Source: Actinomycetota bacterium
Lineage (GTDB): Bacteria; Actinomycetota; Rubrobacteria; Rubrobacterales; Rubrobacteraceae
NCBI GenBank assembly: GCA_902810695.1
Contig: CADDYV010000035.1
Location: forward strand, 1 to 36,571
DNA: 36,571 bases
Direction: 5' to 3'
Part shown: one piece after another, positions 32,359 to 35,768 of the stretch
Position numbering within the stretch: position 1 is the stretch's first letter
Layout of the letters: every line of letters starts with the position of its first letter
Position numbers and translations under genes: made by a program
Notes under the pieces: generated by a model
Told to the model about the DNA's origin: nothing
Databases searched by the model: none
The model's input: the letters and a program-made list of their open reading frames with translations, nothing else

Positions 32359-32416
32359 TGAGTTCTGGCATCATCCGGTTATACTCGTCTGTGAAAGCGT
32401 GAGAGGAGGTAGCAAG

Positions 32417-32902
32417 ATGAGCGAGGTCGCCTACACTTCCCGGGTGAGGGTGGAGCCGGTGGAGGGCAAGACCCGCCGCGCCTACATACCGCCCGATGAG
32501 GAGAAGGTCCTCTTCGGCGTCCACAGCGAGGTCGCTGCTCATTACGGCGTTTCTCCCGACCAGGAGACGCCTCGCCCCACGACGCTCGACTACCTGGTCG
32601 CCGCCGCCGGGGGTTGACTGCTCGGCACCTTCTCGGGCGCGCTGGCAGCGCGTCATGTTTCCTTCAGCGACCTCCGCGCCGATGTTACGGGGGAGATCGA
32701 ACTGGAGAACAAGGTCCTCGTCGTCAAGAGGATCAAAGTCCTCTACCACCTCGCCGCGAGCGAGAGCGACCGCAAGACCATCGAGCGCGTCATCTCCTTC
32801 TACGCCGATGGCTGCCCGGTCGCGCGCTCCATCAGGGAGAGCATCGAGATCTCAAGCGACTTCGAGCTTTTACGCCAGCCTGAGACAAACAGCAAACCTT
32901 GA
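32417..32902 (+). CDS. OsmC-like protein, probable selenoprotein (TGA = Sec67)
   Basis: A 161-residue OsmC/Ohr-family thiol peroxidase-like protein if the in-frame TGA at 32615-32617 is read through. OsmC proteins reduce organic hydroperoxides with two conserved cysteines; the first lies in a GGC motif on a long helix, the second in a C-P-V-x-R-(A/S) motif. Here the frame reads LDYLVAAAGG, then TGA, then LLGTFSGALAARH, so TGA stands exactly at the first cysteine (residue 67). The second, C133 (DGCPVARSI), is intact. The frame stays open and family-like for another 94 codons. A hairpin at 32636-32654 fits a bacterial SECIS. AGGAGGT six bases before the ATG supports the start. The alternative is a single nonsense mutation or sequencing error. 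Confidence 0.82.
32636..32654 (+). promoter_or_regulatory. candidate bacterial SECIS hairpin
   Basis: An 8-bp stem (GGCGCGCT with AGCGCGTC, one G-U pair) and a GGC apical loop at 32644-32646. The loop begins 26 nt after the in-frame TGA. As I recall, published bacterial SECIS models ask for a G in the first two loop bases, a stem of a few to 16 bp and 16-37 nt from UGA to the loop; this fits all three. Confidence 0.65.
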
Positions 32903-33758: not shown

Positions 33759-33995
33759 TCACTCCGCGGGTGACACCTCAGCGAGGTCCCTCATTCGACG
33801 ATTTCTTTGTTCCCGCCAGTCCGCGCGCGACAATCCCGTGACAACGGCCGGAATGCCCGCCTGCACGATCGTCGGGCACATCTCGGCCGAGGTCGCCCAC
33901 CGCACCTCATGGCCGTCTGCCACCAGCGTCCGAGCAAGAGGCACCATCGGGTAGACGTAACCTACCACACCAACCGATGAGAACAGGACCCTCAC
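33759..33995 (-). pseudogene. glycosyltransferase, 5' fragment
   Basis: A GTG start overlaps the stop of the amidohydrolase (GTGA). The 78-residue product begins RVLFSSVGVVGYVYPMVPLA and continues LVADGHEVRWATSAEMCP, the N-terminal Rossmann half of an MGT/macrolide-type UDP- or NDP-sugar glycosyltransferase (normally about 400 residues). It ends in unrelated sequence where the IS remnant begins. Everything after about residue 60, including the donor-sugar domain, is gone. The overlap with the amidohydrolase shows the two were once an operon. Confidence 0.75.
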
Positions 33996-34993
33996 GCCCA
34001 GAGGATCTTCCTGATGTTGCCTTGGAAGATCGCGCTCTGCTCGGTCTGGTTGTTGATCGCGCCTTCGATGTCGGAGATCGTTCTCGGGATGAAGTACGAG
34101 CCAGCTTGTGCGTCGAACGGGGCGTCGGTTCCGAACAGCACTCGCTCGGTACCGAAGAAGTCGACGGCGCACCTGACACCGTGCTGTCCGCCGAACATCG
34201 CCGTGTCGATATAGAGCATCTTGAAGTAGTCGATCGGCTGCTTCTTGAGTTGCGCCAGCGCTTGGTCGAGATTGCCGCTGGGGTCCAGGTCGCCAAACGC
34301 GGGCATCATCTCGATCCGTCCAGAGAAGTGCGGGATCATGCCGCCTCCGTGGTGGGCGATCAGCTTCAGGTCCGGGTGCCGGTCGTAGATCCCCGCGAAG
34401 ATCAGCCTGGAGATGGTGATAGTCGTGTCGAACGTTCAGCCGAACACCTGCCAGAGCAGGAACGGAGTGGTTTCCGGTGGCGCCCCGGGTGTCGCTGGCG
34501 TCCGGAAGGGATGCAACCACACTCCCGCGCCCAGCTCCGCCATCGCGGCGAACAGCGGGTCGTAGTGGTCCTCGTGGAGGGGGAGGTTGAGTGCGTCCTC
34601 CTCGAGCTGTACCCCGAGGGCGCCGAGCTCGCGCACGCCGCGGATCGCCTCCTCGGTCGCCGCGTCGGGATCGGTGACCGGGGTGGCGGCCACGAATCCC
34701 GCGAAACGATCCGCATGCTGCGCGGCGATCTCGGCCATCTGTTCGTTGTTGCGACGCACGACGTCGACCAGAGTCGGAACGGACGGGGACTGAGTTCCGA
34801 ACACGTGCATCCCGGGGACGGGCGTCAGGACCTGCCGGTAATCGCCGTACGCGTCGATCACGCGGAGGCGGAACTCGATGTCGTGCAGCGCCCGCTGGGC
34901 CCGCAGGAACGCACCCGGCCCGCGTGGACCCTGCACGTCAAGATGACGGGCGTACGCCCGGGAAAGAACGTGTGTCCAGACGTCGATCCTCAT
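33992..34993 (-). pseudogene. amidohydrolase-2 family protein with in-frame TGA
   Basis: An amidohydrolase/decarboxylase of the ACMSD-like group, 333 codons with one in-frame TGA at 34436-34438 (codon 186). The frame before it (IDVWTHVLSRAYARHLD ... PFLLWQVFG) and after it (TFDTTITISRLIFAG, then LKLIAHHGGGMIPHFSGRIEM, then LFGTDAPFD) align end to end. Relatives usually have W at this place (FGW-x-FDTT), so TGG to TGA is the simplest cause. The metal residues HHGGG and the Asp in GTDAPFD are otherwise kept. The neighbours are decayed too. The start has AGGAGG seven bases upstream, paired in a leader hairpin. Confidence 0.75.
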
Positions 34994-35000
34994 CCTTTAC

Positions 35001-35016
35001 CCTCCTACCAAGGAGG
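35001..35016 (-). promoter_or_regulatory. hairpin covering the amidohydrolase ribosome site
   Basis: In the minus-strand RNA, CCUCCU (35011-35016) can pair perfectly with AGGAGG (35001-35006), the ribosome site seven bases before the start at 34993; the loop is UGGU. It shares three bases with the larger hairpin upstream, so the two may exclude each other. Confidence 0.5.
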
Positions 35017-35047
35017 CCCGGTGTTAGGGAACCCTAACACCGGGCCT
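35014..35047. repeat. perfect 34-bp palindrome
   Basis: Two 16-bp arms (AGGCCCGGTGTTAGGG and its complement) around an AA centre, with no mismatch. It lies 20 bp upstream of the amidohydrolase start and 85 bp after the stop of the membrane-protein gene. No U-run follows on either strand, so it is not a standard terminator. It could be an attenuator, an operator or part of a lost mobile element. Confidence 0.85.
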
Positions 35048-35132
35048 GTTGTTGAAGTCCGGTTGCGCGGGGGTTAGCTCGAGTGTGCGCGCTGTGTATC
35101 AACAAGATATATGAACCTTGAGGGTGCTCCGA

Positions 35133-35675
35133 TCACGCCATCGTACCAACGTGGGGATGAACGATGTTCCACCCATACCCGGCAATTGCTGCCGCGCCAA
35201 CTAATGCTCCCATAAATCCAAACATGTCTGCGAGGGGCTGAACGCCAGCAAACCCGCTCGCAAAATTGAGCACGCTACCTGCGATGAGCAGCCATCCGAT
35301 CCATACGGAAACTACCCGGGCGCGGCTCGTTCGCCACCCGACGATCAACGCCCCAAGAAGACCCACCAGGGCGCTCGTGAATGGAAGGGCATCATTGACA
35401 CCCGTTCCACCAGCAAGAAAGAACACATTGATAAGGAACGCCATGATGGCTCCGATGCCCAAAAGCAGGAGACCCAACTGCCCCAGCCGTCCGATCTGCG
35501 GCTGGCGTAACTGAATGGCCGGGAGACCAATGATAAAGAGGAGTGAACCGAGCAGGGTGATGCCGCGAATCAGGGGAGTGGGTGAACCGCTGAACAGATC
35601 GTCCCATGTAGCCGAGAGCAGGGAGATCCCGGCACTCACGAGCAAGGCCCATCCACCAAATAAACGGAACTCCAT
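35133..35675 (-). CDS. hypothetical multi-pass membrane protein
   Basis: A 180-residue protein with five to six hydrophobic helices and very short loops; only one basic loop (GWRTSRARV) stands out near residue 117. The ATG at 35675 has AGGAGG six bases upstream; a frame 26 codons longer reads through a hairpin and is not credible. I do not recognise a family with certainty; it resembles small DUF4386-like or unknown integral membrane proteins. It lies 93 bp after the SnoaL-like gene on the same strand. Confidence 0.7.
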   Translation of the reverse strand: MEFRLFGGWALLVSAGISLLSATWDDLFSGSPTPLIRGITLLGSLLFIIGLPAIQLRQPQIGRLGQLGLLLLGIGAIMAFLINVFFLAGGTGVNDALPFTSALVGLLGALIVGWRTSRARVVSVWIGWLLIAGSVLNFASGFAGVQPLADMFGFMGALVGAAAIAGYGWNIVHPHVGTMA

Positions 35676-35704
35676 AGATGCCTCCTTAACCCCGCTAGGC
35701 TCGC

Positions 35705-35751
35705 GGGCCCCATACGTCACAAGGCTATGCCTTAGCCCGCTCTTGGGGCCC
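35705..35751 (-). terminator. nested hairpin between SnoaL-like and membrane-protein genes
   Basis: The outer arms GGGCCCCA/TGGGGCCC (35705-35712 and 35744-35751) enclose an inner AAGGC-TAT-GCCTT stem (35721-35733). It lies just after the SnoaL-like stop on the minus strand. No clear U-run follows; it may be a terminator or a leader structure of the next gene. Confidence 0.4.
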
Positions 35752-35768
35752 ACTCTACATGTATAGGT

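Follow-up and report, generated by a model that had tools for sequence, protein, structure and literature searches.

In Ohr and OsmC, a first cysteine reduces the organic hydroperoxide and a second cysteine serves as the resolving residue. A selenium-containing counterpart, an OsmC-like selenoprotein with the motif UxxT (U, selenocysteine), has been known since 2005 from the Sargasso Sea and GOS marine metagenomes (PMC1088965, PMC2398784), and this UxxT type is the only OsmC entry that we found in the reviews of 2022 and 2026 (PMC9312934, PMC13188914). For Rubrobacter xylanophilus, five selenoproteins were credited in 2006, with OsmC unnamed in the main text (PMC1794560). The gene described here, encoded at positions 32417–32902 on the plus strand of the window (the whole stretch of 36,571 nucleotides analyzed), shares with the marine UxxT selenoprotein the OsmC fold (PF02566/COG1765), a predicted selenocysteine (Sec) at the position of the active-site Cys, and a downstream hairpin of the bacterial SECIS type. 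However, the motif of its family is U-L-[L/T/V]-G-T, that is, UxxG and not UxxT, the 18 rows of alignment A1 having Gly at +3 and Thr at +4 relative to Sec.

The gene resides on contig C35 of a draft genome of 3.59 Mb (148 contigs, 98% complete), whose closest named relatives are metagenome-assembled genomes (MAGs) of Rubrobacteraceae and Rubrobacter. A Shine–Dalgarno-like GAGGAGG (32403–32409, plus strand) lies 7 nt upstream of the ATG at 32417; the sole in-frame TGA, at codon 67 (32615–32617), is followed by 94 sense codons and the stop TGA at 32900–32902. Re-translation reproduced exactly the coordinates, the single in-frame TGA, and the 94-codon continuation given in the initial annotation of this DNA, and its assignment to the OsmC family was upheld by the fold and by the Pfam score, the read-through product of 161 residues matching the OsmC profile (PF02566) with 54.7 bits against a cut-off of 27.5. 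The second conserved cysteine, Cys133 (TGC, 32813–32815) in the CPV motif of DGCPVARSI, is predicted from the alignment to relatives and to the structures 2onf and 1ml8 to be the resolving residue; already described as intact, it is Cys in nearly all aligned TGA and Cys forms. Automatic gene calling would shorten this protein to 66 residues.

The codon at position 67 is TGA, never TAA or TAG, in 48 non-redundant genes (a count that ignores kinship) spanning Rubrobacterales, other Actinomycetota, and MAGs labelled Chloroflexi, Acidobacteria, and Gemmatimonadetes, labels that can be wrong for draft MAGs. In 25 of the 39 genomes of the class, 27 full-length or nearly full-length copies contain exactly one TGA each, always at this codon, and 10 more distant loci, whose labels (Nitriliruptoraceae, Acidimicrobiia, Chloroflexi, Acidobacteria, Gemmatimonadetes, or other) can likewise be wrong, carry the same TGA. 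Among 396 genomes across the phylum, the TGA form was found in 13 further actinobacterial genomes outside the family, and two more genomes, in family f27, contain a divergent TGA form; the f27 members L101 (genome G078) and L102 (G208) read U-M-M-G-T and have a differently placed hairpin, e.g., CTGGCCACGGCGCTGGCCAG. Because the codon is identical in every TGA-type relative, its occurrence is far beyond chance. An actinobacterial sister family, f14, has TGC or TGT in the Sec column in seven copies and Asp in one further copy. The comparison of orthologues called for by the initial annotation has thus yielded both TGA and Cys codons, and the Cys of the seven f14 copies bears out its proposal that the TGA stands at the position of the catalytic Cys. 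The Asp-containing copy (L100, G337 C43:5578–6009) is a paralogue that also has Ser in place of the second Cys (HSPCARS) and, judged from these substitutions, can probably no longer carry out the redox chemistry.

The window comes from a draft assembly, and a TGC codon might have been misread as TGA by an error of sequencing or assembly; this reading is already refuted, and its residual probability is negligible, because independent genomes show the same TGA, including assemblies of two or three contigs (G009, G024) and of a single contig (G147, G245). The interpretation of a standard gene caller, in which the TGA is a true stop and only a pseudogene or a 66-residue protein is left, finds a parallel in decayed copies among the relatives, namely a copy with extra stops and a frame break on contig C346 of G033 (L110), a genome having an intact copy elsewhere, and a frameshifted copy in G028 (L109, C1:3821623–3822028). 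It is nevertheless very unlikely in view of the restriction to TGA at one codon in 48 distinct genes, the Cys carried at this codon by the non-TGA family, and the retention of Cys133, together with the selection acting on the codons beyond the TGA. Among the Rubrobacterales copies, the median dN/dS amounts to 0.10 immediately upstream of the TGA and to 0.16–0.20 downstream of it, so that the frame on both sides of the TGA is under purifying selection. Over the 16 codons that follow the TGA, dS is at its minimum (0.43, compared with 0.84 upstream and 1.45 nearer the C-terminus); an RNA signal carried in addition by these codons would be expected to lower dS in this way.

All four components of the Sec pathway that the initial annotation had proposed to look for are present in the window genome above curated cut-offs. 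Profile searches located selB (354.6 bits, cut-off 242) and selA (519.8 bits, cut-off 268) on contig C12, where they adjoin a tRNA-Sec gene (64.7 bits, anticodon UCA), and selD (341 bits, cut-off 125) on contig C23. The selD gene (locus L067, C23:18901–19815, minus strand) itself contains an in-frame TGA within AG-U-ASK, a stretch that we take to correspond to AGCGCK, the catalytic sequence in E. coli SelD; downstream of the TGA, a hairpin of 8 bp closed by a GGA loop is predicted, a layout that matches the hairpin of the OsmC gene; selD is therefore apparently a selenoprotein gene as well. With two independent Sec genes in one genome, a working Sec pathway is likely, and judged from its gene content the organism is very probably able to insert Sec. 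Within the class, selB and tRNA-Sec were each detected in 29 of the 39 genomes. In one genome having the TGA gene (G004, 98% complete), the search found neither; since both genes are neighbors in many of these genomes, one missing contig could explain the gap. Another genome, G015, contains a second tRNA-Sec candidate (C19:10563–10652, 57.1 bits) besides the copy adjacent to selB. Outside Rubrobacterales, selB exceeded the cut-off in 14 of 15 genomes with the TGA form, and all eight public MAGs with this form that were tested for selB were positive. Four of the five genomes of the f14 Cys family have no selB over the cut-off, and the fifth gives a partial match of 219 bits. Insertion of another residue at the TGA, through near-cognate suppression or a reassigned code, has nothing specific in its favor and is extremely improbable: TGA remains a stop in this organism, since the OsmC gene itself terminates with it, the Sec machinery is complete, and the aligned residue of the non-TGA family is Cys.

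Downstream of the Sec codon, a stem-loop of the sequence GGCGCGCT-GGC-AGCGCGTC (32636–32654, plus strand) comprises 8 bp, including one G–U pair, and a GGC loop at 32644–32646, located 26 nt from the TGA; for the 33-nt segment that contains the hairpin, the minimum free energy (MFE) is −13.2 kcal/mol. It lies within all the published limits for bacterial SECIS elements, i.e., a loop of 3–9 nt with G among its first two nucleotides, a stem of 4–16 bp, a distance of 16–37 nt from UGA to loop, and an MFE of at most −7.5 kcal/mol (PMC13188914). The SECIS-like hairpin proposed in the initial annotation accordingly holds in its geometry, its coordinates, and its fit to the SECIS model; its energy alone is not unusual. 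Folding energy was in fact rejected as proof of a SECIS, the window gene giving p = 0.09 against synonymous shuffles, because random synonymous encodings of this GC-rich peptide come close to it in stability; the Cys forms show the same mean folding z as the TGA genes, and a comparison of the 56-nt stretch with its dinucleotide shuffles yields z = +1.1. The signal is instead that of a fixed position and frozen codons. When at least six contiguous pairs around a loop 26 nt after the TGA were demanded, with synonymous shuffles as the null, the hairpin was found in 37 of the 48 TGA genes against 2.7 expected, and in none of the seven Cys genes; in the remaining 11 TGA genes, which lack the exact hairpin, a variant SECIS would be needed. 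In Rubrobacterales, the codons GGC GCG CTG GCA GCG CGT are nearly frozen, with Ala encoded by GCA in 18 of 20 genes. The excess codon homozygosity there is 0.52 in the hairpin codons compared with 0.11 elsewhere, the top-ranked six-codon windows lying at or just before the hairpin, while outside Rubrobacterales the freezing is weak (0.14 versus 0.08). No compensatory double changes were seen in the 8-bp register. Some actinobacterial genes have a shifted hairpin with double changes (GGTGCC-CTCGA-GGCAC); for this group, the shifted 5-bp register contains six double-change cells, a number reached in 0 of 500 shuffles, a signal that is weak owing to relatedness. We infer from their sequences that these shifted hairpins and the variant ones of f27 may act as SECIS elements. 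An Rfam scan of the window gave no match, and a terminator-like call on the hairpin was not accepted, as it arises from the SECIS hairpin together with the loose T tract behind it.

Considering the translation with TGA as Sec, the Pfam match, the fold, and the selection on the frame, along with the Sec machinery and the Cys codon of the sister family, we assign a probability of about 0.95 to the main reading, namely that 32417–32902 encodes a selenoprotein of the OsmC family with Sec at position 67. Its relation to the described OsmC selenoproteins is distant. The window protein has a weak similarity (residues 53–150) to the NCBIfam model OsmC_like_Se (NF041052), scoring 37.1 bits, under the cut-off of 95, and genome G026 contains, besides the TGA gene of the present family, another gene that belongs to NF041052 (95.7 bits) and has no TGA. 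In a phylogenetic tree, the Cys genes of f14 and the TGA genes of f27 fall together with the present family and separately from the NF041052 members (97/97 support, subject to a warning of long branches). The marine OsmC selenoproteins mentioned in the initial annotation do exist in the literature, but they constitute a family different from the subfamily of the window gene. The two types can coexist, since genome G206 carries beside the present family's gene a partial NF041052-like match (L123, C176:5931–6101) whose in-frame TGA, in the context GL-U-MLTQI, gives the UxxT motif known from the literature and whose frame breaks off shortly thereafter. In G081, which also has the present family's TGA gene, a further OsmC-family TGA gene (L122, C444:64802–65233) reads SLAD-U-TIVTL and later CPVSNSL, a UxxV type. 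In the open-access literature searched, we found no report of the U-L-x-G-T group, an earlier mention elsewhere being possible. By its sequences, the group appears to be a real, conserved selenoprotein subfamily, separate from the known UxxT type.

The AlphaFold model, calculated with Sec replaced by Cys, has a pLDDT of 82.7 and matches the structures of OsmC and Ohr, the best Foldseek matches being 2onf and 1qwi; VIA-align gives Z scores of 10–12 over about 110 residues. The protein shares its fold and the two redox positions with the OsmC/Ohr hydroperoxide reductases (E. coli OsmC, 1qwi/1nye; the Thermoplasma acidophilum protein, 2onf; Ohr, 1n2f), whereas the first Cys would be substituted by Sec, and the identity in the structural alignments is 8–20%. 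A direct search of PDB sequences with the single protein and a PHROGs search returned no match. In the profile alignment, position 67 and Cys133 fall in the two columns in which the family has Cys, Cys133 coinciding with the second Cys of 2onf and 1ml8, in agreement with the Sec–Cys active site envisaged in the initial annotation.

The gene product would accordingly be a thiol-redox enzyme of the OsmC/Ohr fold, in which the reactive first Cys is replaced by Sec. In the predicted mechanism, SelB binds the hairpin at 32636–32654 when the ribosome meets the UGA of codon 67 and delivers Sec-tRNA-Sec, which SelA makes using the selenophosphate that SelD supplies; the 161-residue protein would thereby be produced rather than the 66-residue fragment. 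By analogy to OsmC and Ohr, Sec67 would then reduce an organic hydroperoxide, being itself converted to the selenenic acid, which Cys133 would resolve to a selenenylsulfide; a dithiol reductant, inferred likewise, may regenerate the Sec67–Cys133 pair. On balance, the product probably acts as a peroxidase. A possible but clearly less probable alternative, which shares the Sec claim with the preferred explanation, is that the substrate is not a hydroperoxide and the enzyme performs some other thiol/selenol redox reaction, for example on protein or small-molecule disulfides. The OsmC families are diverse, several relatives in the PDB being labelled hypothetical or of unknown function, and the neighboring genes, mostly for transporters, are not conserved, one relative having a DsbA-like gene and a different one a gene with a CMD domain; the position of the Cys pair and the fold, on the other hand, match the hydroperoxide reductases. 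No conserved operon was found around the OsmC gene, the flanks varying among genomes with MFS and ABC transporters as the most frequent neighbors. Downstream in the window, two open reading frames (33977–35077, plus strand, 366 residues; 35133–35753, minus strand, 206 residues) have no Pfam match.

Returning to the selenoprotein with its predicted Sec67–Cys133 pair, we consider it quite likely from the sequences compared that it represents an OsmC subfamily (U-L-x-G-T) not listed before and containing Sec almost without exception, a regular part of the selenoproteome in Rubrobacterales and several other Actinomycetota that is common to some MAGs labelled Chloroflexi, Acidobacteria, or Gemmatimonadetes, with Cys relatives in one family mostly without clear selB. 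The current OsmC selenoprotein model of NCBI would miss this subfamily, and gene callers would truncate its members. The SECIS element, locked within conserved codons, would offer a test case for recognition by actinobacterial SelB, and the natural Sec/Cys pair of one enzyme, in Rubrobacterales and f14, respectively, may show what selenium buys an OsmC-type enzyme. Altogether, a widespread selenoprotein subfamily would be added to a stress-tolerant group of bacteria.
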